Assembly (NCBI GenBank): GCA_023627715.1
Contig: JAMAHW010000112.1
Coordinates: 43,818-107,817 of the forward strand
Direction: 5' to 3'
DNA length: 64,000 nt
DNA from: Periconia sp. R9002
Lineage: Eukaryota; Ascomycota; Dothideomycetes; Pleosporales; Periconiaceae
In this document: one piece after another, positions 17,223 through 60,488 of the stretch
Layout of the letters: every line of letters starts with the position of its first letter
How positions within the stretch are numbered: the stretch's first letter is position 1
The notes under the pieces: generated by a model
Told to the model about the DNA's origin: nothing
Seen by the model: the letters and a program-made list of their open reading frames with translations, nothing else
Databases searched by the model: none
Position numbers and translations under genes: made by a program

Positions 17223-18972
17223 ATGGGCATCCTCGCCTTCGTCGAAGATAGGCCCACGCCCAAAGCCGTCTACAATTGGCGTGTTTACGCATGTGCCTGT
17301 GTAGCATCATGGGCTGCGTGCATGATCGGTTACGACTCCGCTTTCATTGGGACGACGCTTGCTCTGCCATCCTTCGTCGATGAGTTTGGATTCAAGAAAA
17401 TGGATCCCAATAAGCTTGCTCTCACCAAGGCGAACATCGTATCGGTATACCAAGCAGGAGCCTTCTTCGGATCTTTCGGCGCTTACGTCTCGAGCTACCA
17501 TTGGGGCCGAAGGAGGAGCTTGATCATCTGGATTCTCGTGTTTATTGTGGGTGCTGGTATGATGTTGGGCGCAAATGCCCAAAGAGGGCTGGGTCTTATC
17601 ATCGGAGGCAGAGTGCTCGCAGGATTGGGAGTCGGTGCCGCGTCTAACATGGTGCCTATTTACATTTCCGAGCTCTCCCCTCCCGCGATTCGTGGTCGTC
17701 TCGTGGGTATTTACGAACTAGGATGGCAAATTGGTGGGCTCGTTGGATTGTAAGTTTCAATTTTTAGGCGAGAAGAAAGGTCGCCCCTGTTATCGACAAC
17801 TGTTAACATGTTGTAGCTGGATAAATTACGGTCTACAAGAGACCATGGCACCCTCGCACCAGCAGTGGCTTATTCCTTTTGCCGTACAGCTCATCCCCGC
17901 GGGTTGCCTCCTCCTTGGAGCCATCTGGATGAAGGAGTCCCCTCGATGGCTGTTTCAAAAGGGCCGACGGGAACTGGCCATGAAGAACCTCTGCTGGATC
18001 CGCAACCTCGAGCCAACAGATCTATACATTGTCGAAGAAGTTGCAGCCATTGACGCGCAACTCGAGTGGGACCGTGTCCACGTCGGCGTCGGTTTCTGGA
18101 AGCCATTCGCCGCTCTCAAACAGAGAAAGACTCAATGGCGTTTCTTTCTTGGTGGCATGCTGTTCCTCTGGCAGAACGGCTCTGGAAGTACGTACATTTC
18201 AGGCGTAACATAAGCATAGTGAACTTTACTGACTTTCTACCCGCGAACAGTCAACGCGATCAACTACTACAGTCCCACTGTCTTCAAGTCTATCGGCATT
18301 ACGGGAACCAGCACTGGTTTCCTGACAACCGGCATCTTTGGTGTCGTCAAAACTGTAGTCACCGTCATCTGGCTTCTCTGGCTTATTGATCAGCTCGGTC
18401 GCACAAAGTTGCTCATGTTCGGTGCAGCTGGCGGATCTCTATGCATGTGGTTTATCGGCGCATACATCAAGATTGCCAACTCAGGATCCAAAGCCGCTAA
18501 TGCCAGTGGGAAGCTCTCTTCCGGCGGTATCGCTGCCATGTTCATGTTCTATCTGTGGACAGCCTTCTACACCCCATCGTGGAACGGTACCCCCTGGGTC
18601 ATCAACTCCGAAATGTACAGCCAGAACACGCGATCACTCGGACAGGCTTCCGCGGCCGCGAATAACTGGTTTTGGAATTTCATCATCTCGCGCTTTACAC
18701 CTCAAATGTTCAACACGATGGAGTACGGTGTGTACTTCTTCTTCGCGTCGCTGATGATCTTGTCGATTCCCTTCATTTACTTCTTGGTGCCTGAGACCAA
18801 GGGTGTGCCGCTCGAGCACATGGATGAGCTGTTTGAATATAAGAACGTGCGCAAGGCACACGGCGAAATGATCCAGAAGTTGAGAATGGATGAAGAGGAG
18901 TTCCGACACGACGCCGAAGGAGCCGGGTTGACTGTTGAGAAGACCAAGGATGAGAGGGTCGAGACTGTGTAA
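17223..18972 (+). CDS. qutD: Quinate permease, MFS sugar-porter family
   Basis: Three exons (17223-17749, 17817-18187, 18251-18972), 539 residues. The start MGILAFVEDRPTPKAVYNWRVY is the characteristic N-terminus of fungal quinate permeases. Sugar-porter motifs are in order: GYDSAFIGTT in TM1, WGRRRSLI after TM2, GRVLAGLGVGAASNMVPIYISE, GFWINYGLQ at the first junction, KESPRWLFQKGR, GINAINYYSPTVF at the second junction, DQLGRTKLL, and PETKGVPLEHMDELF at the end. It would import quinate at the plasma membrane with protons. In Aspergillus its expression depends on the QUTA activator. Together with qutE, qutG and qutB it completes a four-gene subset of the qut cluster. Confidence 0.95.
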
Positions 18973-43582: not shown

Positions 43583-45079
43583 TTAGTCTTTGTCCAAGGT
43601 AATCTGCGTCGACACCTCCCACTGCTGCCCGCCACCCCCATAGCTGCCTCCCAGCCGGTTCCGAACCATGCTCCCGATGCGGTCGCGTAGCCGTCCCATC
43701 TCGTCCAGATTCCGCACCCGCAGCTTGAGGTTCGCCTGGCACAGCCCATAATGTACCTGCCAGAACTTGGCCTCCTCCACCACACTGACGGCCGGATCCG
43801 TCTCAATGTCGTACATGACGGCCGAAACCCCTGGCCCTGAATATGACATCATGAGAACCTTGCCCAACGTCCACCCCTGGATCCATCCCAACGCGACCAT
43901 GGCGATGGCGACAGAAAAGGAAAGCGTGCGATCTAACCAAACATACATCCGGATGCTGAGAAGGGGAAGCAGCAGAAGCAGTGCCGAACATGACAGCGTC
44001 AAGAAATGTGAAGGGTTGCTCAGTACAGAGGGCAGATTGGCAATGGCGCTCAGCCTCATCACTTTGGCTATGCGGGCATGGTTCTTCAACACAATGGCAG
44101 ATACCAAAGTGCAGATAATGCCACTGAGCGCCGCCAGGTCGATGCTGCCAGGCGACACGCGCTCGTGGGCATGGCCGTGGCCGTGGTGTGATTCGTGCCC
44201 GCCCTTGTTTTCCAAAGTATGGGTGAGGCCGTGCGATATCAGATCCAAACCCATGAAGAGCAGTCCAACAGACATGCCCAAACCGGCAATCACCTCTGCG
44301 CGCTCAAAGCCAAAGGGATGGCGGATCGTAGACCGTTTCCAGACTTCAAAGTTGCACCCCACATCGACCGCCACGCACAGAAAAGCGCCCAGAGCGTCGT
44401 AGAAGAGGAGTCGCGATAGCACGGTGAGAGCCAGGGACTCGTGTGCACCCCACTGTACCAGACCAGCGACCGATAAATGGCAGAAACACCACCCTAGCCT
44501 CAACGTTTGTTCTCTTGACATGCTCGATCGATATTCTTTGAATGTGGGTACCGGGAGCGACGCGGGAAGTTGCAGCGGCGCACGAGGCGGGGGTTCAAGG
44601 AAGATCTGGTGAGAAACGCTGCTGTGCTTGTATTTGTGTCCACGTCTCCGGCCAATGTCCTAGACAGTTTAGTCACCATTCCATAGGAACAAAGAGTCTT
44701 GACGTACAGCTTGCTTGGGTTGCGCCTTTGCGGGCATGTAGCTAACCGGCTGAAAGTTGAAGGGATTGGGCGCATTCTGCGCATTATTATCAGAACCGCT
44801 CAAGGACGATGATGCTTCATTGTCGCTGCCTCCGGTGAGTACGGTCGCTGGCGTAGCCAGAAATGATGCACGATCGGGGCTGTAGAGGCTGCTTGGGGTC
44901 GCTCTTTGGGAGATGGAGTCGAAGGTTGCAGAGAGCGGAGACAGGGCATTGGGGTTCAAGGCGTTCGGATTGAAGGATGAGTTCACGGGCGATGGCTGGT
45001 GGTCGGCAGCAGCAGGGTCGTCGTCGGGTGGAGGCGTTGGGGTCCTCGGTGGAAGGGGTAGGGGCATGTTGGATGCCAT
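43583..45079 (-). CDS. Cation diffusion facilitator, Zrg17-like (ER/Golgi zinc transport partner)
   Basis: Two exons (45079-44708, 44659-43583), 482 residues. The long N-terminus is Pro/Ser/Asn-rich and disordered, and ends FKEYRSSMSREQTLRLG before TM1. The CDF core has FYDALGAFLCVAVD (TM2), HPFGFERAEVIAGL, a His-rich loop (HESHHGHGHAHE), and TM5-TM6 around SVLSNPSHFLTLSCSALLLLL. A C-terminal soluble domain follows (LKLRVRNLDEMGRLRDRI). The usual HxxxD zinc sites of TM2 and TM5 are not intact, as in yeast Zrg17, which works only as a heterodimer with a Msc2/Cis4-type partner. It would help load zinc into the secretory pathway. It is divergent with the next gene over 485 nt. Confidence 0.85.
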
Positions 45080-45564: not shown

Positions 45565-46383
45565 ATGAAGCCCGGTACCGACTTCCAGCACCACGGCGGA
45601 GATGACCCTCCTGATTCGGCACGCGACGCTTCACTGGGCGCGGAAATGACTTCGAAGAGAGAACCTGCCAAGCACCATGGCCACACCAAAATCCCACGTA
45701 GAAAGAGGAAGTCGTCTCTGAGGACGGGAGTACTAGGCAAAAGCATGGCCATCCAGGACCCTCTACCGGAGCCAGCACTGACTTCACCTCCCCCCATCCA
45801 GCGCCCTATCGGTCAGGATTCCGCCGACACCAGCAGTTCCTCATCTCATGGCCGTGACGAGTCAACACCACGACCGCTGGCCTCTACCATGAGGGCTTCT
45901 TCCGCCCCATACGCATCCACCACAGATGATGATGACGGGCTATCTTTCTTTCGACCCTCGGCTTCCACCAGCGGCTCACGGCAGCCAACATCCGCATCAA
46001 ATCTGATGTTGCCGCGGCGTCGCTTCAACCGCTCATCGCAACATTCCTCTCCCCTGGTCATGCAAGTGCCCATGGAAGTGACCTTGGACGACGAGTGGGA
46101 CTACAGCGAGACGGAGTGGTGGGGCTGGGTCATTCTCTTCACCACTTGGATCGTCTTTGTCGTCGGCATGGGCTCCTGCTTCGGCGTCTGGAGCTGGGCG
46201 TGGGACGTAGGAGAGACACCGTACGCGCCTCCCGACCTGGAGGACGACCCCACGCTCCCCATAACGGGCTACTATCCTGCATTGATGGTATGCACCGTCG
46301 TCATGGCGTGGATTTGGGTCGTGGTGGCTTGGGTCGGCATGAAATACTTCAGACACGCCAAAGTGGTTGCGGATGACGGCTAG
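45565..46383 (+). CDS. Two-TM membrane protein with disordered N-terminus, unknown function
   Basis: Single exon, 272 residues. The first about 170 residues are Ser/Pro/Arg-rich and disordered, including a basic KIPRRKRKSS stretch. The conserved-looking part follows: VTLDDEWDYSETEWWGWVILFTTW, TM1 (about 188-212), a loop WDVGETPYAPPDLEDDPTLPITGYYPAL, TM2 (about 238-260) and a short tail KYFRHAKVV. The block from WWGWV to the end has the regularity of a conserved fungal family, but I do not recognise its function. Disordered tail plus two-TM hairpin suits an ER or plasma-membrane adaptor. Confidence 0.75.
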   Translation: MKPGTDFQHHGGDDPPDSARDASLGAEMTSKREPAKHHGHTKIPRRKRKSSLRTGVLGKSMAIQDPLPEPALTSPPPIQRPIGQDSADTSSSSSHGRDESTPRPLASTMRASSAPYASTTDDDDGLSFFRPSASTSGSRQPTSASNLMLPRRRFNRSSQHSSPLVMQVPMEVTLDDEWDYSETEWWGWVILFTTWIVFVVGMGSCFGVWSWAWDVGETPYAPPDLEDDPTLPITGYYPALMVCTVVMAWIWVVVAWVGMKYFRHAKVVADDG

Positions 46384-46984: not shown

Positions 46985-48109
46985 ATGATGGCTCTTCGAC
47001 GGAATCCCTACAGGAAGTGTAAAAGGGACGACGCCACCCAACTCGCAGGTCGAAAGCGTGCGAACGAGTGGGGGAAGGATCACGTGGAAAAGCTCGATCA
47101 ACTGCCGCTCAACCGAGTATCGGTCATGTCGCTTCTCAATGAGGACGCGGTCAAAGATGGCGGTCAAGAGGTGGATTGCATGGCATCACTCAGAAAGACA
47201 CAGTTAGTGGTGATTGCCAAGTGACATTTCAAGTGCTTTTCTAACCCGGAATAAAGACGCAAACCCTTCCGGCCAGCCGACAACAAGTCCTCGGATCCAT
47301 TTCCTTTACTCCATTTACCACGAGAGCTTCGCAACCACATATATTCGTATCTGGTCGTGCGCCAAGGCCGCCGCGTCCCCATGCTAGAAGCAAAATCGAT
47401 TCTCCGAGACCAAAAGAAACGCCAAACTGCCCAGCGAACCCGAGAACGTCAAAATCTCAAGCGTATCCAGACCGGACGTCGACCCATAACTTCCAAAGAA
47501 TCCTCACCCGTGCCCATCGTCGACCTCACCATCAGCCAGGCATCGAAATTCCTCCACTGGGAAGCCAGCGAGTACTTCTACCAGAGCAACTGGTTCGCCA
47601 TCTCCATGGACAATCTCCCCCAGACCACCATCGAAACCCCTTCAGGCTGGGACTACAGCCGCATCACACGCCTCCAACTCGAACTCCAACTCAAAGACGC
47701 GCAACGCATGAACAGCTACACGGACTGGGCGCCCTTCTTCGCCATGTTCACCCGCCTACGCTTCATCCGAATCATCCCATCCTTCCACCCGCGGTACTAC
47801 GACTGGGCCATCTCCGAACTCAACGAATGGCACTCCGCACACTACATCTTCCGCGCTTTCTTCTCCTTGCTTCTATCTTCCATCCCCGAGCATCTACACC
47901 TCAAGTTGGGCTTCTCGATGAATCCCTGCGAGGACATGCACCTCGAGGGCAAAATGCCCGTCAGCAAGAGGCTTCTCTGGGACATGTACGCGGATCTGGG
48001 TGCGAGGAAGGACTGCAATGGCCAGCGTCTGTTTGTGAATCAGGTCGTGGATTGCGAGGCGTCGTTTGAGAAGCCCATCGGTATGCTCGGGCGATGTACG
48101 CGTTTATGA
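46985..48109 (+). CDS. F-box-like domain protein
   Basis: Two exons (46985-47202, 47257-48109), 356 residues. The 54-nt intron (GTTAGT...TTCTAAC...AAAG) joins SLRKTQ to RKPFRPADN and opens the F-box-like block FPLLHLPRELRNHIYSYLVV at about residue 90. The large second exon continues this into VDLTISQASKFLHWEASEYFYQSNWFAI, the usual second half of the fungal F-box-like/2EXR-type domain. The remainder (ITRLQLELQLKDAQRM...LRFIRIIPSF) matches the general layout of Pezizomycotina F-box families. The start is uncertain (46904 or 46985/46988). It neighbours the RiPP locus but is probably unrelated to it. Confidence 0.75.
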
Positions 48110-48827
48110 AACCACTAATCCCTTCTATGCTATAATGTCTTAATGTAAAATACTTTTCTCACACCACTTGACTGCTTTGGGTGTGTTGGTATGGGTGTTT
48201 CGTACCGCCTCCTCCTTCACCGCTTTTGTGATTACCTACATAGCATTGATGCTAAGTAAGGAGGATTACGATAACATGTATATTATATATAACATATACT
48301 ATATCCTATATACAGTATACAATATCTCAACTATAGAAAGAATAACTGCTGTAATTAATTCTATTATAGTGTCTTTCTTCTTCGCAATTGATTGGTGTAA
48401 TTAGTTACGGTATTGTACCTATCGTAGTGAACGCGTTAAGTATAGATAGGCAAATATTAGTAAGGTAAGCGCACGGCTTGGCAGTAGCAAAGCAAGTAAA
48501 CTAGAGCGCGAAAAAAAAAGGAATAAAGGTATAGTTAAGTTGCGAATAGCTGCAGGGTGCTGAGTTCTGATAGATAAGATAAAACCTAGGGTGAGCTGAA
48601 ACCAGGTGCGCTAGCTTATTTTATCTACGCCCTTAAGATATAATAAAAAGGTTTTCATAGTATAAAATATAAATCAATGTTGAATTTATTGGTATATTCT
48701 AACCTAGGACTCTACTTGCTTTTACCCCCACCCGTTTATCAGCGCATAAATCTCTAGAAATCACCAAGTTCTTGCAAGGGAGGAAGCTTAGAATTTGCAA
48801 CATAGTGCTTGCCATTCTCGTAACTAT
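48110..48827. other. AT-rich intergenic with a solitary MITE end
   Basis: 718 nt. From about 48240 it is very AT-rich (TATATATAACATATAC type), suggestive of RIP-decayed or transposon-derived DNA. The 29-nt sequence at 48369-48397 matches the terminal repeat of the MITE-like element at 57.1 kb. No gene seen. Confidence 0.6.
48369..48397 (+). mobile_element. Solitary MITE-type terminal sequence
   Basis: GTGTCTTTCTTCTTCGCAATTGATTGGTG, nearly identical to both ends of the element at 57118-57236 (one extra T). I found no matching inverted partner nearby, so this may be a truncated or internally decayed copy. Confidence 0.65.
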
Positions 48828-49369
48828 TTATACCTTTTCCTCGGCTCCGTCCTTCACATCAGCGTAGTAAATGTGAGCCGGGGTGATGTCGCCGCGGACC
48901 TGAGCCGCTGTCCCTGCTTCTTCCTGCTCAACAAACGCGAATTAGACCCCTTTTTTGTAAGCGCATCAAAACAGAAAAGGGAAAAGAACACAAAGAAATT
49001 TGAGAAGTACCATGCTAGAGTGCTTATGGTCAGAGTGTCGCTTCTCACTCTTCGCGGCGTCATCTACATCGGCGTAGTAAATGTGGGCGGGCGTAACCTC
49101 TCCGCGACGCTCAGGCGAGGCGTCACCCTGTTGTCGTATAGTATGTTTAGTTTGGAATTTAAAATGTGGAGGCGTGGAAAAATGATACGTAGTGGGACAG
49201 TGATGGGGGTAGGAGGAAAACGTACTACGTCGGCGTAGTAGATATGGGCGGGCGTTACTTCACCGCGGATGCTAAGGTCGAGGGCGTTACTGCTGGATCC
49301 TGGGGTTGGGAGCGCGACGGTGAGGGCCATTTGCGCTAAAAGGGAGGGGAGGATTATGGAGGTACGCAT
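48828..49369 (-). CDS. Dikaritin-type RiPP precursor peptide with three TPAHIYYADV repeats
   Basis: Three exons (49369-49226, 49127-49011, 48923-48828) encode 118 residues. A signal peptide (MRTSIILPSLLAQMALTVA) is followed by three 14-residue units, RG(E/D)(V/I)TPAHIYYADV, at about residues 35-48, 56-69 and 97-110. Each exon encodes exactly one unit and all introns are phase 0. Linkers carry Kex2-type sites: RR at 55-56 and KR at 77-78. This is the build of UstA-like precursors (ustiloxin, asperipin-2a, epichloecyclin), in which repeated cores rich in Tyr are cut out in the secretory pathway and cyclised by UstYa proteins. Two UstYa genes lie immediately beyond the divergent promoter. The exact core limits (perhaps HIYYADV or YYADV) are not known. 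The ten residues TPAHIYYADV are identical in all copies although the DNA differs. Confidence 0.88.
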
Positions 49370-50109
49370 CGTGGTTTTCCTGAAGATGATGGTGCTTATG
49401 GTTGAATGGGGTGAAAATGAAAATGAATGGTTGAAGAGTTTGGTAAGTAAAGAGTTGGTTTCGCATAGGTTCCGGGGCTTCTTAAATGCTTGTTGCAAGG
49501 TGGATGGACATTTGTAATGGACCTGTGTACAAAGACTTCGATTTTTCGCCTTGGCATTTGGAATTGACCCATTTGGTAAAGAGAAATTTCTATAATGTGA
49601 AGGATCAACGGTAATTTTTAGCCGTGAACGTGCATGGCGGTGAGTCTTGCAGCGAGTGAGGCCTGGAACTGTCCTTGGTAGTGATGTACAATACTGCTGT
49701 ATGGTCGTACGACGTTTGGTATCCGAAGCGGTGCACTTGCACTAATCGAGTAATTTTTCATATATGCAAGATGTTGGTAGATTAGCATGGATCTTACGGG
49801 AGTCATTTTGGTGCTCCAGAGCTGCCGGAATTCTTTCTATGGTGGGACTAGCTTCTCATAGTTATAGCAGATGGGACGTAAAGACGCACTGATTGATGTG
49901 TAAACTACTTATCTAGGTAATGTACGAATCTGAAGCCAAAGCATCAACTCTGATAAGAAAAAAAGTACATGCATGCTTGGCTGTAGTAAATGGTCTACGG
50001 GAATTGGTCTGGCATGACGGTCTGAATTGTTCTTTTCTCACCCTTTGCCTAAAATCTCAAGTGCTACGTCTTCCTGCACCTCAACTCCATCATTTCGTTC
50101 TCAAGCAAA
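49370..50109. promoter_or_regulatory. Divergent control region of the RiPP precursor and first UstYa gene
   Basis: 740 nt between the precursor ATG (minus) and the UstYa ATG (plus). Open frames inside are short and featureless. No operator could be recognised by eye, but a shared promoter would co-express peptide and modifying enzyme. Confidence 0.5.
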
Positions 50110-51087
50110 ATGCTTGGTTCATTCGCCACTCAATATAATCGTCTAGACCGACTGACTGATTCTGAAGAACATCTTCAATCTTTTCAAGAAACCAAATGCG
50201 CAAGCTGCACTCGTTCAAAGCGACCGTGGCCCTGGATCACCTCGACTTTCAGTCTCGCTGTGTGTGTGGTTGTGCTTCTATACATCAATTCTCTTGATTG
50301 CATCAGAGGAGAATACGCTTATGGTTTTGATACTGATCTTGGTAAGTGTTGTTAGCAAGTGGATTGTTTGCCCATTAATACCTTCACTGATACTGACCGG
50401 GGATTGCGACTAGAGCCCGCACGACAAGCTGCCGGCCTACAGATAGTACAATTCACTGGGGGTCTTGAAATTTCGGAAAATGGCACTGTATATCGCGACG
50501 AGCCTTTTGGGCAGCCACAGTACGTTGGGCCCCCCAGCCCAAAGCTGGACGAAGCTTGGAATGATATACTTCAAGGTTGGAGTTCTCTCAGAACTACATC
50601 AGAAGCTGGATTGATTCTAATATTCCTAGCCCTCGAAATCGTCCTTGAAGGAGATGAAGCGGTTACTGTAGCTGGGAAGACTGAAGACGAACCCGGGGGT
50701 GGCTGGCGTTTGAGTCTCGATGTGTATCATTCTCTACACTGCGTAGTAAGTCTTTTCCCACCTATCTATCAATTACGCAAATGCGGTTATAAATCAGCTG
50801 ACACGTCCTGCCTGCAGAATCTTCTTCGTGAAGCTATTGATATAGAATACTATCAGCGTCGAGGAGAATCGCCTCGGATTTGGCGCCTGCACGTAGAACA
50901 CTGTACTGACTATTTGCGCCAAGTGGTGCAATGCGGTGGGGACATGACACCTCTTTTCTATCGTAGATCCAAGTTTCGCGCGCACAACGCTGGATTCCCA
51001 GTTTGGGGAGAGCCGCATACATGCCGTGATTGGAGTCGCATTCACCACTGGGCTTTACAGAAAGCTGCCACTCCTGCTCAAGTTTAA
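50110..51087 (+). CDS. UstYa-family (DUF3328) peptide-cyclising protein, copy 1
   Basis: Four exons (50110-50341, 50414-50575, 50630-50745, 50818-51087), 259 residues. The cytosolic N-terminus is about 42 residues, with a cluster TKCASCTRSKRPWPW. One TM follows (TSTFSLAVCVVVLLYINSL), then a lumenal domain. The two hallmark motifs are YHSLHCVNLLREA (HxxHC, formed across the third junction) and HVEHCTDYLRQVVQCGGDMTPL. EAWNDIL and the loop EDEPGGGWRLSLDVYH precede them. The second intron (54 nt, weak GTTGGA donor, in frame, no stop) is inferred from the usual motif spacing and could be retained. UstYa proteins act with Cu or other metal at the His/Cys motifs to make oxidative ether or C-C crosslinks in Tyr-containing RiPP cores. 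Confidence 0.88.
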
Positions 51088-52124
51088 ATCATAATGTACA
51101 TATCTCCTCAAACTATCCGTATTAGTTGTTTTCGCTCAAATTCTTATGCGGAAATGCGATTTGTTGCTGTTTGAGAATTAAGTATAATATATATCAATTG
51201 CTGCTTAGCCAGCCCATTTGCGTAGCTATTCAAGTCACGACGCCTTTTCTGAAACTGCCTTGAAGCAGTCAAGTGCCTTTTGTTGTCAATTATTTTTAGT
51301 CTATTATATTTGTCCGGGTATGACATTATCCAAATGTTGGTTTAAAATATTGCTAAACTCGTCTTTCTTAATCAACTAGACTACATTGGTTGTCAGTACC
51401 TGGTGGATGCTCATGTATGTATGGTATGTGTATTGACTGATGAGTATGAACTATCTATGGATCTGCACTATGTGCCAAGGTGCTAACCCTATTAAGCCTA
51501 GTGCTCCGCCATCTCCCCACAGGTCCGACGGTGTCTTTGCAGCTATCCAAGATGACTATCAGAGCGCCTCTTAGAGGATTCGTTCAGTAGAGTACAGGTC
51601 ACCGGGACACATCATTTACGGCAACTAACGAAAGGATTTGATGCGCGATCTTATCTAGGACCCCCAACGTAGAAGTATACGAATCCACGGATCGTAGTTG
51701 AAATGCGAACATCTGACGGCGACCGGACGCTCTATCTTCTATGTTTATTTTCCACCATAGAGACACTAGTCTAATACAGAGCTTACTTATAGTCTACCCT
51801 AGGCGCCGATCGAGTGATCGTAAGTTGCTTATTTCGTCGTCTCGTGCGAGACTTGCTAGCTATTGCTCAAGCTATAGTCGGGTATCAATCCAAAATCAAT
51901 TGATCAGCCTAGTAGGCAGTGATTTTGAATAACTGTTATCAATTGATGCGCATATGGCACGGTTTTTCGCTTCTTGGCAATGGAACGTCCGGCGAATGCA
52001 CTTATCTCAGAAAGCAGTACGGCCAAATTCAACTTTGAACGGACACAACAAAAGACTACTACCATTCGTGTGTGGAGGAACTTTTTCTGCGCATATCAAG
52101 TGAGTCACGAAAGAAAACTTCCTC
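51088..52124. other. Intergenic between the two UstYa genes
   Basis: 1037 nt, moderately AT-rich, with no supported gene; it should hold the terminator of copy 1 and the promoter of copy 2. The short open frame 51741-51932 has no protein character. Confidence 0.5.
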
Positions 52125-53179
52125 ATGGAGCATCAACACAAGTTCGAGCCAGTGCCTTCGTCGGAGGATGGTGACTCCTTTGATAGTGCAAGCGCACTTC
52201 TCGATGAGAAGCAATCAATCTCGTTCTCCCGCAGTCCGGGCAAGAAGAGGTGGGTGTGGCTCACACACGGTCTTTTCCTGCTTGTCAACTTGGGATTGAT
52301 GGTGGCATTTGCGATCTTGACCAACCGAGAACTGAAGCCGCCATCACTTTTGCCTGGAGAGCTTGGTATGGGCTGCGTCTTACACATTCAATGTTACCTA
52401 CAATTGACAACTGACACTGTCGATGACAGGGCTCTTAAAAGGAATCGCAAAGTATGAACCGTGGGATATTCATGCGCCTGGATATACTTCCGAGGACACT
52501 CGCTCCATATTCGCCGAGCTACCATCACCGTCAAGCGACGCAGCGTGGAAAAATATCACTAGCAGTAAGAGTGACCCGCAGAGGTTATCCATTCTAGGAC
52601 CGTGATACTAAACGATAATCAAGGAGGAGCATTCATCGGTCTCACCAAGGAGCAGAACGCACAATTGGCTTTTCCAGCAGGGGAATCGCATCACAAGCCT
52701 GGGCAGTATCCAGTGGGTCTAGCTGTATATCATCAGCTTCACTGTTTAGTACGTCGTCAGCATTAATCCCCCACTTACCCAAAAGAAAAGAAGAAAAAGT
52801 TCATCTGTATGAGTTCTAATCCGCGACAGTTTTTTCTACGTAAGGTAATCTACAGTAAGGAAGGGACTGTAGTACCCGATCGGTTCAGTGGTAGCTCCAT
52901 CGATCTACAAGACGAGCACATTTGTAAGCACCGTCTATCCCCAGCAACCCTTTCCTTTCGATCTTGCCGGCTAAACTTTATTAATTAGCGCACTGTCTCG
53001 ACACTCTCCGCCGAACACTCATGTGCCATGGCGACCTGACGCCCATTCCCATGCGGTGGGATACTGAACTGCAAGGCTACCGCTTCACCTGGCCACTTAC
53101 CAAAACATGCCGCAACTTTGAAGAAATTACGGAATGGGCTGACCAACCTCACTTTCACACCTCCATCCCGGTGCAGTAA
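52125..53179 (+). CDS. UstYa-family (DUF3328) peptide-cyclising protein, copy 2
   Basis: Five exons (52125-52365, 52430-52564, 52624-52748, 52830-52923, 52989-53179), 261 residues with phase intact throughout. The N-terminal cytosolic tail (MEHQHKFEPVPSSEDG) is followed by TM (WLTHGLFLLVNLGLMVAFAIL). The lumenal domain has YEPWDIHAP, AAWKNI, GAFIGLTKEQ, then YHQLHCLFFLRKVIY (HxxHC) and the second motif HISHCLDTLRRTLMCHGDLTPIPMRW. The last junction (T|CG) creates the SHC of the second motif. It differs from copy 1 outside the motifs, so the two probably do different crosslinks or form a heteromer, as suggested for paired UstYa/UstYb in ustiloxin biosynthesis. It would be lumenal in ER or Golgi. 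Confidence 0.92.
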
Positions 53180-53758
53180 AAGCTGATGCGATACTATCTG
53201 GCCATTCAAGAGCTGTGGTTCTGGGTGCTCTCTACCCCATGATATCTTCGTGGAAGAGCTTAAGGCGGTTTGCGTCGTTTGGAATTTAAGAGGAAGCTCG
53301 GATAGTCGTATATAGATTGCTTTTCGTTCGGGAGGGGGCCATGCGAATGATAATATAGAGTAGTGCGTTTTCTGATTTGTATGGGGCAACTGACGGTCAA
53401 CTATGTTAGCACTGAGTATTCCTAGCCTAGGGCTGCACTACATAGCCTGCGTGGCGCATTCCTCTAAATCCTAAAATCAATTATATGGCGTAGGTAGATT
53501 TATTTACTAACCTAAGCCCTATATAAAACTATTTATAAGTATAATTTACAACTATATGTTGATGATATTATCAATTAACTAGCACTTGAGGTCGCCGATA
53601 GGTGAGAACGCCAAGCAAGCGGCGGAGGCACCTCCGCGCCGCGTCTAAGCTCCGACCTCCAAGCTTCTCCAAATGTGACGAAAAAGCTGCTAAACAAGAC
53701 ATCGATAATACTACTCGCACCACACACAAAAACAACATACACCTCACACACGCAAATC
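53180..53758. other. Intergenic, partly AT-rich, no gene seen
   Basis: 579 nt between copy 2 and the cyclin gene. 53461-53580 is AT-rich. It marks the right edge of the RiPP locus, followed by housekeeping genes. Confidence 0.5.
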
Positions 53759-54646
53759 ATGCAGCCACGGCCGTCTCCCCTAGCGAACCCCCTCGCGAAC
53801 GTCGCCCAATTGCGCGAAACGAGCTCGCAAATCGACAACATCCCACGCGATCTCGAGGACTCGGTGCGCTTCGCGGGGGCGCGTCTGACGCAGGCGGCGG
53901 GGATTCTACTTCGCCTACCGCAGGAGGTGATTGCGCAGGCTCTGGTGGTATTCACGAGGTTTTGGGTCGGTCCGGAAGGTGGGAGTTTGGTCGAGTTTGG
54001 AGCGGGTCAGGTTTCTGCGGCGTCGATATACCTAACGACGAAGCTTTCTGCGTATCCGAAATCCCCGAGAAGTATCGTGAATGTCTACGCATACCTCGAC
54101 TCGATTTCTTTCCCATCCTTCGCGCCGGATCTCCTGGAGAAGGAGTCTAAACCGGAGGAGTACTACGTTTCCGAAGGGACGTATCAGACGCGCAAACTCG
54201 ACCTTTTCGAAACCGAACAACGCATCCTCAAAGTCCTCGGCTTTCAGGTCCACGTCTCCCTCCCATATGCACTGTGTATCACGTATCTACAAGCCCTCGA
54301 TGTGTTCTCGCACCCGCGTGCGTCGGAGCTCGCAAAGCGCGCGACCGCGCACTTGAATACCGCGCTGCTGAGCCCGCAGCTTTTGTACCTCACACACCAG
54401 CCGCCCAGCCTGGCGACCGCCGCCATCTATCTCGCCGCGAAGGAAACGGGGATCAAGCTGCCGGACGTTGAGTGGTGGGAGGTGTTTGACACGGATCGTG
54501 AAGAGTTGGGATTTTTGGTGGTGGCGCTGTTGAGTGTGGAGAATTTCGCGAGGGAAGAGGAGAGGGTGTGGAAGGGGAGGCGGGTGCCGATGACGGTGGA
54601 TGCTGTGGAGGCGGAATTGAAGAGGAGGAATGATAGCGAGGGCTGA
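53759..54646 (+). CDS. Cyclin (cyclin L/Q-like, CDK-activating for transcription or splicing)
   Basis: Single exon, 295 residues from the ATG at 53759; the longer open frame starts upstream at a GTG. Two cyclin folds are visible. The first (about 25-165) has ARLTQAAGILLRLPQEVIAQALVVFTRFW, QVSAASIYLTTKLSAYPKSPRSIVNVY and ETEQRILKVLGFQVHVSLPYALCITYL. The second (about 175-265) has TAHLNTALLSPQLLYLTHQPPSLATAAIYLAAKETGIKLP. The order RFW...AS-YL-KL...E--IL--LGF is that of transcription-type cyclins (L, Q, K, T). Its partner kinase cannot be read from sequence. It is a housekeeping gene at the flank of the RiPP locus. Confidence 0.85.
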   Translation: MQPRPSPLANPLANVAQLRETSSQIDNIPRDLEDSVRFAGARLTQAAGILLRLPQEVIAQALVVFTRFWVGPEGGSLVEFGAGQVSAASIYLTTKLSAYPKSPRSIVNVYAYLDSISFPSFAPDLLEKESKPEEYYVSEGTYQTRKLDLFETEQRILKVLGFQVHVSLPYALCITYLQALDVFSHPRASELAKRATAHLNTALLSPQLLYLTHQPPSLATAAIYLAAKETGIKLPDVEWWEVFDTDREELGFLVVALLSVENFAREEERVWKGRRVPMTVDAVEAELKRRNDSEG

Positions 54647-58690: not shown

Positions 58691-59721
58691 CTAGAAAGTC
58701 ACAACACCAACCCCAGCACCCTTCTCTACAATCTCACAAACCCCCTCAGCAGCATCCACCACATACTCATACGGCACCACCAAACTCCCCAACTGCGTAA
58801 TTTCGGGCAAACTCACCTCATCAAAAACATTCCCCCTCTCCACCGCAAACCCCTGCACCCTCGAATCCAAATCCGTCACAATCGCGCGCCTCGTCCTCTT
58901 AAACACATTCCCCTCAACCAACACCTGCGCCCCCATCCTCGAATTAATCCCACTCACGCCATTATCAACATAACACGACGAGTAGACGTGCGCGGTGCCG
59001 AAGCGGATCGAGGGGAGGCGCGAATTGACGTTGGTCCAGTGGTTGTGGTGGTACGTGACGTGCAGCTTCCCAGTGTCTTCGACGGCGTTGGAGTCGGAGT
59101 GTCCGATGAGTGAGGTCTTCCAGTGGTCGTGGAATTTGTTCCAGCTGAAGGTTAGCGAGTCGGCGGCGTGTTTGGCGTCGAGGAGGCCGTCGTAGAAGTC
59201 TTTGGGGACGGTTAGGCCGGTGTTGGAGAGGTCGTTGTGGTCTGTGGTTCTGTGTGAGTTTCTCTGTTGGATGAGATAGGGGGAAGTGAGGTAGGAAACC
59301 GGGAGGCGTCGAACTCACCGATCCACACTTTGGTCGCATGATCGATATCGATCAAGTCTTTACCCTCCGGCGCCTTGTGAAGCTTCAGATTCCGCACAAT
59401 AACGTTCTCGACTTTTTTGATTCGGAGACCGCCGTCTTCGATACCTGCATCACTTCCAACACCCAGCACGGAAGTGTTGCTCGCGAGTTTGACGATTCCG
59501 CATCCCTTAAGGGTTCCCTGTATCTTAATCACGCCGCCGATTTTAGCAGCGGCAATAAATTCGCTGCACGATGTTACGTTTGTGCCGGCGCCGGAGCCGC
59601 CGCCTGTCGTGCCTGCTGCGTAGCCGACGAGTTCATCGATGGGAGCGGCGCGCTGGTGGAGGGGGTTACTTGTTACAAGGGCTGAGGTGGAGAGTATTGT
59701 GGTGAGGGTTGGGATGTGCAT
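58691..59721 (-). CDS. Secreted pectate lyase, polysaccharide lyase family 1
   Basis: Two exons (59721-59319, 59241-58691), 317 residues. The intron joins KVWI to DHNDLSNTGLTV, giving the PL1 block vWIDHNDL. The signal peptide is MHIPTLTTILSTSALVTS, followed by ELVGYAAGTTGGGSGAG. Further PL1 marks are GLRIKKVENVIVRNLKL (parallel beta-helix), HSDSNAVEDTGKLHVTYHHNHW (calcium-binding Asp and His region), and NVNSRLPSIRFGTAHVYSSCY with the catalytic Arg. It cleaves polygalacturonate by beta-elimination outside the cell and would break plant cell-wall pectin. All expected residues are visible and the length is usual. Confidence 0.94.
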
Positions 59722-60488
59722 AGTTGCTGTTTCTTTTGGGTGCTTTTTTAGGAGCGAGAATGCGTAAGTGAGCGACGGAAGAATTAAAAAAAGACAGAAA
59801 GGTACTATTCTTCTCAAAGGAATAATCAACGATAAAAACAGATGTGATAAACCCACAAATGAATGGCGAAGAAACAAAAAAGGCCTATAACTATTATCTC
59901 CCAATAATTAAACACCCCACAATCTTTATACATCGACGCAATCAAAAATACAACATGTGGGGTGTCCCCCAGCCCACACCCCGTCAGTCCCCCTCCCATC
60001 TTCTCCCTTCCAAATTAATTATTAACTCAACCGTAATTCAACTATATCCGTAAACACCTCCAACACACACAAAACCAGACCCAAGCAATTACTCCTGTCG
60101 ACCAATTGCCGTTCCCCCCACTTCCCTACCCTACCCTAGCCTACGTTGAAAATTCTCCGATCGAGAATGCTCAGTCGCGGTCTCCTGGCCTTTAAAGTGG
60201 GTTTAAGGGAATAGAGGGACATTCCTACATGAGGGAAATTGTGGTTAGGGGGGTGTGGATGTTTGATTTAGGTTCATTATCCTCGTCAAGGAGATTTTTG
60301 GGGTGTTTTTATGTGTTGATGGCGTACGGAGTTTTATGTATCTAATAATCTTGTTTTGCTCCTTTTATTCTCTACAAAATCGAATTTGAAATTGATCATC
60401 ACAGAGTATTGATTTCTTCTCTACAATTTCCTGACTTAAAATGTAACTTAAAACATACTTGATTATAATCTACTGCTAATCTTCATAA
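59722..60488. other. Intergenic, no gene seen
   Basis: 767 nt, pyrimidine- and A-rich near the pectate lyase start, nothing else of note. Confidence 0.5.

Follow-up and report, generated by a model that had tools for sequence, protein, structure and literature searches.

The question raised by this locus of Periconia sp. R9002, found in a stretch of 64,000 nucleotides (the window), is whether a short repeat-containing gene and two neighboring UstYa (DUF3328) genes together constitute a biosynthetic pathway, or whether the UstYa proteins act on another substrate. As far as can be judged from the sequence, the former is probable: the locus would make a dikaritin-type (UstYa-RiPP) ribosomal cyclic peptide from a three-copy precursor, with the two UstYa proteins carrying out the cross-linking.

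Organization of the locus

The gene models agree with the originally predicted coordinates of the precursor gene and of both UstYa genes, and the locus consists of these three genes and the region between the divergent pair:

48828..49369, minus strand: precursor gene, 118 amino acids; exons 49369-49226, 49127-49011 and 48923-48828 (predicted splicing)
49370..50109, no strand: divergent intergenic region between the precursor gene and UstYa1, 740 bp, with a putative regulatory role
50110..51087, plus strand: UstYa1, 277 amino acids; exons 50110-50341, 50414-50745 and 50818-51087; PF11807, 121.7 bits
52125..53179, plus strand: UstYa2, 261 amino acids; exons 52125-52365, 52430-52564, 52624-52748, 52830-52923 and 52989-53179; PF11807, 122.6 bits

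The 740-bp region had been described as a shared control region across which the precursor faces both UstYa genes. Its length and its UstYa1 side are as described, but UstYa2 does not border it: this gene has the orientation of UstYa1 and is preceded by a separate gap of 1,037 bp.

The precursor and its three core copies

The two predicted introns of the precursor gene are 98 and 87 nt long, with GT-AG borders and both in phase 0. The reading frame of exon 1 differs from that of exons 2 and 3, and the three-copy model therefore requires splicing, which is predicted. The resulting protein has the following features:

49307..49369, minus strand: hydrophobic, signal-peptide-like N-terminus, residues 1-21 (from hydropathy)
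49226..49264, minus strand: core copy 1, GEVTPAHIYYADV, residues 36-48, exon 1; immediately preceded by a single arginine (SIR)
49065..49103, minus strand: core copy 2, GEVTPAHIYYADV, residues 57-69, exon 2; immediately preceded by RR and followed by KR at residues 77-78
48855..48893, minus strand: core copy 3, GDITPAHIYYADV, residues 98-110, exon 3; immediately preceded by a single arginine (QVR)

The best 15-residue hydropathy window (1.94) covers residues 5-19, and the best window starting past residue 25 reaches 0.41. The repeat is a 13-residue block, G[ED][VI]TPAHIYYADV, present in one copy per predicted exon, and the linkers between the three short copies are unlike one another. The pairs of copies differ by 6, 10 and 7 synonymous and by 0, 2 and 2 nonsynonymous changes, respectively (Fisher p 4e-5, 4.5e-8 and 1.4e-4 for the excess of synonymous changes), and this mostly silent divergence indicates that the repeat peptide is maintained by selection. 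The presence of a precursor with three Tyr-Tyr repeats, as first proposed, is borne out by these three copies, in which the protein is conserved and the silent sites have diverged.

The three-copy repeat exceeds the chance expectation, as a 6-residue peptide repeated at least three times within 1.5 kb is found in none of six control tiles (9 kb, same window) and never appears when the locus is shuffled 30 times by mononucleotide. Across the 42.9-Mb genome, a degenerate DNA pattern encoding IYYADV has three matches, all of them at the locus, compared with zero for a control pattern, and the only three matches of the precursor in the whole genome are its own exons. A Pfam scan of the precursor gives no family at E values up to 0.1. 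The notion that HIYYADV is unlike known cores fits with the absence of a relevant match of the core strings, variants included, in the open full text (a scope that excludes supplementary tables and subscription papers). The calculated linear [M+H]+ of GEVTPAHIYYADV is 1434.690 (1432.674 minus 2 H, 1430.659 minus 4 H), and that of GEVTPAHIYYADVDDAAKSE is 2150.988 (2148.972 and 2146.956, respectively).

The two UstYa proteins

Both UstYa scores are above the Pfam UstYa (DUF3328) cut-off of 25 bits, and the copper motif HxxHC...HxxHC is complete in both models, so that the claim of two UstYa genes stands:

50728..50742, plus strand: UstYa1, first HxxHC (HSLHC, residues 183-187)
50890..50904, plus strand: UstYa1, second HxxHC (HVEHC, residues 213-217)
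52731..52745, plus strand: UstYa2, first HxxHC (HQLHC, residues 162-166)
52917..52996, plus strand: UstYa2, second HxxHC (HISHC, residues 197-201), interrupted by the last of the predicted introns

The two proteins are 30% identical. UstYa1 has a membrane-like stretch near residue 47, and its comparison with solved structures gives no match at E values up to 1. For UstYa2, 72 gene models are open, and the one given here was chosen from 12 of them; the starts of its exons 2, 3 and 4 are ambiguous by a few codons. In a study of CctR, this DUF3328 protein is described as a binuclear copper enzyme for which the HxxHC(x)nHxxHC motif is essential; the same source cites Chiang et al. for the cyclase AprY, and reports that UstYa-family proteins also perform hydroxylation or halogenation, other substrates being possible, a point against the cyclic-peptide reading (PMC12435403).

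Cleavage sites and alternative functions of the repeat gene

The Kex2-type sites are partly as predicted. There is one dibasic site between each neighboring pair of copies, RR (residues 55-56) between copies 1 and 2 and KR between copies 2 and 3, but two of the three copies lack a dibasic start: every copy is immediately preceded by an arginine, which belongs to a dibasic site for copy 2 only, and the predicted protein has no dibasic site ahead of copy 1 or past copy 3. The assignment to the RiPP class is favored by the secreted-type repeat precursor, the dibasic sites between the copies and the adjoining UstYa genes; the two copies that lack a dibasic start speak against it. One match to a kexin-type P-domain is present in the genome (contig C29). 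For some mushroom repeat precursors expressed in yeast, one report describes the products as apparently cut after single arginines (PMC9769878).

When read against the KEP criteria of Umemura (secretion, a minimum repeat length of 8 residues, separated pieces of no more than 100 residues, Kex2 sites between the repeats), with secretion judged by hydropathy, the precursor fits in its lengths and sites. It is conceivable, albeit rather improbable, that the repeat gene is a KEP gene whose released peptides are linear, such as a signal or an effector, and that the UstYa genes act on another substrate. Nothing in the copies requires a modification, and in a survey of 1461 strains, a DUF3328 gene is found near only 22% of the KEP genes, so that linear KEP products would be common (PMC7329392). 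Against this, the precursor gene directly adjoins the UstYa pair, its core has Tyr-Tyr and six more UstYa-linked precursor-like repeats are found among the 26 other loci examined, whereas almost all alpha-pheromone-type KEPs of that survey are without a DUF3328 neighbor (PMC7329392).

It is very unlikely that the locus is decaying or silent, with genes that are open but unexpressed, or with a wrong splice model and thus no three-copy protein. The splice model comes from the sequence alone, the copies number only three and two of them have no dibasic site immediately before them; however, every coding exon is open, the copies have diverged at silent sites with the protein conserved, and both UstYa models retain every HxxHC residue. 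A repeat protein that stays uncut, has a structural or surface role and is close to the UstYa genes by coincidence has a negligible probability. Fungi do secrete many repeat proteins, and the Epichloe protein SspN, with a predicted kexin site, is reported to be uncut in culture (PMC6374014), but the three short copies with unlike linkers, an arginine immediately before each and dibasic sites between them argue against it, as do comparable arrangements at other UstYa loci.

Genomic surroundings

The absence of a P450, a tyrosinase and a peptidase from the cluster had also been proposed. No tyrosinase (PF00264) or S41 peptidase (PF03572) is matched on contig C112 with all candidates scored, and no P450 among the 92 of 318 candidates scored; the proposal therefore holds for tyrosinase, for peptidases of the S41 type only, and for P450 within these 92 candidates. 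No end-trimming peptidase, reductase or regulator is found near the locus when 115 of the 121 six-frame pieces of 36-64 kb are scanned. This piece scan registered one UstYa piece and missed UstYa2, and small-exon genes can therefore escape it. As for transporters, matches in the window comprise MFS frames at about 9-10 kb, a sugar transporter (18409-18972) and a cation-efflux frame (43583-44521). The GC content of the bins at 48-54 kb is 0.435, 0.451 and 0.490, with 0.541 and 0.546 in the flanking bins, but its value as a sign of an accessory island is weakened by the region at 56-58 kb (0.404) and by much of 8-36 kb (0.44-0.50).

Comparison with known pathways

The locus is a new representative of a known class and is closest in logic to that of asperipin-2a of Aspergillus flavus. 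That pathway is the best-studied of the small ones originally named; in its report (PMC6514808), it has four genes, aprA, aprY, aprT and aprR, including a reductase and a transporter; AprY, a single UstYa homologue, is essential, and a sequential macrocyclization of FYYTGY is proposed for it. Shared features are the repeat precursor, a UstYa-family cyclase, the Tyr-Tyr core and a very small cluster for which no tyrosinase or P450 is listed there. The cores are otherwise unlike, and the Periconia locus differs in having two UstYa genes, single-arginine sites before two of the three copies and one copy per predicted exon; no such reductase or transporter is found at the locus by the piece scan, which can miss small-exon genes. 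The idea that a precursor plus UstYa is the minimal set is qualified by the four genes of asperipin-2a, and therefore the set of this locus is smaller, or needs genes elsewhere, or includes small-exon genes that were missed.

The ustiloxin and phomopsin systems also have a precursor with a signal peptide and repeats, and ustiloxin has a UstYa/UstYb pair. According to PMC6514808 and PMC7329392, ustiloxin has a tyrosinase homologue, a P450 and flavin enzymes, related clusters share S41 peptidases and the cores are of the YxIx type, unlike HIYYADV and unlike contig C112 with its lack of tyrosinase, S41 and (in the scored subset) P450 matches. The epichloecyclin (gigA) cluster of Epichloe is similar in being a small four-gene cluster with a repeat precursor, one DUF3328 gene and a Tyr-Ile ring (PMC7317419, PMC9233826), but it has its own kexin gene and a 27-residue repeat, compared with the conserved 13-residue block here.

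Other UstYa loci in the genome

The genome has 34 UstYa loci, of which 27 were examined and seven were left out. Repeats are present at eight of the 27, and precursor-like repeats at seven, including the present locus. Because the spans of the six later loci (L035-L040, 4-5 kb) are shorter than those of the first twenty (about 10 kb), these counts are a lower bound. The repeats on contig C123 (L032) met the three-copy rule and were dropped, as the copies are 564-627 bases apart in a long Gly/Ala/Gln-rich frame, unlike a secreted precursor. With 20 of the 27 loci having no precursor-like repeat, a UstYa gene alone predicts little.

All seven precursor-like repeats contain Tyr; in PMC7329392, Tyr is present in 65.6% of the repeats adjoining DUF3328 genes and in 38.2% elsewhere. 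Five repeat strings from the sister loci have no match in the open full text. In the sister array on contig C85, a single arginine also occurs between the copies. Venturia inaequalis is similar in arrangement, having several DUF3328-linked repeat precursors in its genome, with nine clusters (PMC9632046). At three of the seven loci, repeat and exon-intron unit seem to be one and the same, and searches of the open literature, including PMC9233826 and excluding subscription papers and supplements, gave no description of such an exon-per-repeat architecture.

Proposed pathway

In the proposed dikaritin-type pathway, the hydrophobic N-terminus would take the precursor into the secretory pathway, where kexin would be expected to cut at RR and KR, placing each copy on a separate fragment; a further cut would probably follow the single arginine immediately before copies 1 and 3. 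Membrane-anchored UstYa1 and UstYa2, with copper and oxygen, would then create side-chain bonds at the Tyr-Tyr block, an ether from a Tyr to a neighboring β-carbon as in asperipin-2a being the likeliest, and carboxypeptidases and other unlinked proteases may trim the ends. A more specific and tentative version, which is rather doubtful as a whole, is that the two divergent UstYa enzymes act in turn on HIYYADV to give an undescribed bicyclic scaffold, with kexin release at the single-arginine and dibasic sites; since every core copy has an exon to itself, the exon count would then determine how many copies of the product are made.

Biological implications

If this pathway is correct, the locus would rank among the smallest sets of the UstYa-RiPP kind, with no recognized gene alongside those for the precursor and the two cyclases. 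It would provide a clean test of what a UstYa pair can do without a tyrosinase or a P450, and a test of whether single-arginine sites aid the maturation of a precursor. Together with the at least six further UstYa-linked precursor-like repeats of this genome, and with the repeat seemingly an exon-intron unit in three of the seven, it would form a small natural series on the gain and loss of copies.

The predicted precursor gene and its repeat

The locus lies on contig JAMAHW010000112.1 (C112) of a genome of 42.9 Mb in 267 contigs, and the original prediction of a three-copy precursor next to two UstYa genes is confirmed by the gene models, the Pfam matches and the repeat statistics. The genes are:

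49369-48828, minus strand, precursor, three-exon gene model, 118 residues predicted
50110-51087, plus strand, UstYa1, three exons, clear Pfam UstYa member
52125-53179, plus strand, UstYa2, five exons, clear Pfam UstYa member

The predicted precursor protein has a hydrophobic start, followed by the blocks GEVTPAHIYYADV, GEVTPAHIYYADV and GDITPAHIYYADV. Each exon holds one block, the linkers between the blocks are dissimilar, and the two predicted introns (98 and 87 nt) are GT-AG introns, both in phase 0.

This repeat is more than chance. The rule used (at least three copies of one 6-residue peptide inside 1.5 kb) finds nothing in six control tiles elsewhere in the window or in 30 mononucleotide shuffles. 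The degenerate DNA pattern of IYYADV occurs three times genome-wide, always at this locus, with no occurrence of the control pattern in the whole genome, and the whole-genome search returns no other match to the precursor. When copies 1-2, 1-3 and 2-3 are compared, there are 6, 10 and 7 synonymous differences, respectively, at about 10 sites, and 0, 2 and 2 nonsynonymous differences at about 32 sites (Fisher p = 4e-5, 4.5e-8 and 1.4e-4, values that are somewhat flattering because the test covers only the block picked for being conserved). With silent sites this diverged and a near-unchanged peptide, the copies are old, and what was retained is the peptide sequence and not that of the DNA; near-saturated silent sites together with an almost constant peptide are hard to account for in another way.

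The UstYa genes and their neighborhood

The identity between UstYa1 and UstYa2 is 30% across 158 residues, which makes them old paralogues rather than a recently copied pair. Both contain HxxHC...HxxHC and, around residue 47, a segment that looks membrane-spanning; each protein has two more C-terminal cysteines, the first being 10 residues past the cysteine of the second motif. In CctR, the HxxHC...HxxHC motif is described as binding two copper ions, the motif mutants being inactive (PMC12435403). For UstYa2, 72 gene models are open, of which 12 were listed, and they leave the exon borders uncertain by a few codons.

The frames flanking the locus, and those further off in the window (the last two lines), are listed below; the flanking frames look unrelated to it.

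43583-44521, cation-efflux frame
45565-46383, PIG-Y-domain protein
53675-54646, cyclin-like frame (our own call; the sole hit is a TFIIB repeat, 13.4 bits, below cut-off)
59212-59904, pectate lyase frame on the minus strand (PF00544; compatible with a life in association with plants)
18409-18972, sugar transporter
9-10 kb, MFS frames

The Pfam scan of 36-64 kb (115 of 121 six-frame pieces of at least 75 residues) finds nine families, DUF7730 and Slx4 included, with UstYa as the only secondary-metabolism family; the scan caught one UstYa piece and missed UstYa2, so other small-exon genes could escape too. On C112, the whole-genome searches give no tyrosinase or S41 peptidase match (all candidates scored) and no P450 match (92 of 318 candidates scored); genome-wide, there are 98 P450, 32 tyrosinase and 4 S41 peptidase match rows. 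The GC content at 48-54 kb (48001-54000) is 0.435-0.49, the adjoining bins being at 0.541 and 0.546, but other parts of the window are just as low in GC (56-58 kb, for example, at 0.404), so GC does not mark the locus out.

Proposed maturation

An arginine directly precedes every core copy (SIR, ERR and QVR). Dibasic, predicted Kex2-type sites separate the copies (RR the first from the second, KR the second from the third), but only copy 2 starts at such a site. Cutting by kexin at the dibasic sites alone would generate one copy per fragment, with a clean start exposed for copy 2 only. If kexin also cuts after single arginines, all three copies would start with G[ED]. Some products of mushroom repeat precursors expressed in yeast are described as apparently cut after single arginines (PMC9769878), and a single arginine is also seen between the copies of the related array on contig C85.

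The nearest mechanistic match is asperipin-2a, a pathway with a single UstYa homologue in which Tyr ethers to beta-carbons are reported to close the FYYTGY core (PMC6514808). The cross-link pattern on HIYYADV is one that we infer, and the product may be linear. The anatomy of the locus gives good support to its assignment as a small RiPP locus of the dikaritin type; the chemistry is predicted.

Related loci in the same genome

The 61 UstYa matches in the genome were grouped by us into 34 loci, of which 27 were examined (the window, 20 of about 10 kb and 6 of 4-5 kb). The three-copy rule selects eight of these, including one on C123 (L032) that was dropped on inspection, being a long frame with spaced HHYGRDAA repeats that is not precursor-like. 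Seven loci, the window included, were kept, all with Tyr in the repeat. No precursor-like repeat is seen at the other 20 examined loci, and a UstYa gene alone is therefore a poor predictor.

Precursor-like, UstYa-linked repeats outside the window
C60 (L015), AWYDITYIDK
C75 (L017), VAYPESY
C85 (L020), VEYTGAGGVNILNPGVVEAR
C100 (L021), TNIYPGVKYPGD
C78 (L030), near 119 kb, TEFAPWYR
C136 (L037), DAPWYRD

In the window, C85 and C78 (splice sites of the latter read by eye), the repeat unit seems to be an exon-intron unit. In L020 and L030, entire exon-intron units seem to be repeated in tandem at a spacing of 127-134 bp, each unit with one peptide copy, and there are stops inside the third and fourth copies of the L020 array. 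At C75:43847-47322, the VAYPESY repeat is adjoined by two UstYa matches and, unlike the locus in the window, by a P450. An ustiloxin-like pairing is seen at C64:200325-202541 (L040), where UstYa exons adjoin a tyrosinase-family match that is interrupted by several stops; the 5 kb examined there shows no repeat precursor.

The core peptide of the window was not found in the main texts of open papers. Among 1461 fungal strains surveyed, 1345 are reported to carry such repeat precursors, 7878 in total, and 22% of these precursors have DUF3328 genes next to them (PMC7329392); with this abundance, one more is to be expected and comes as no surprise. With six further precursor-like UstYa loci, the locus in the window is one of a series in this genome.
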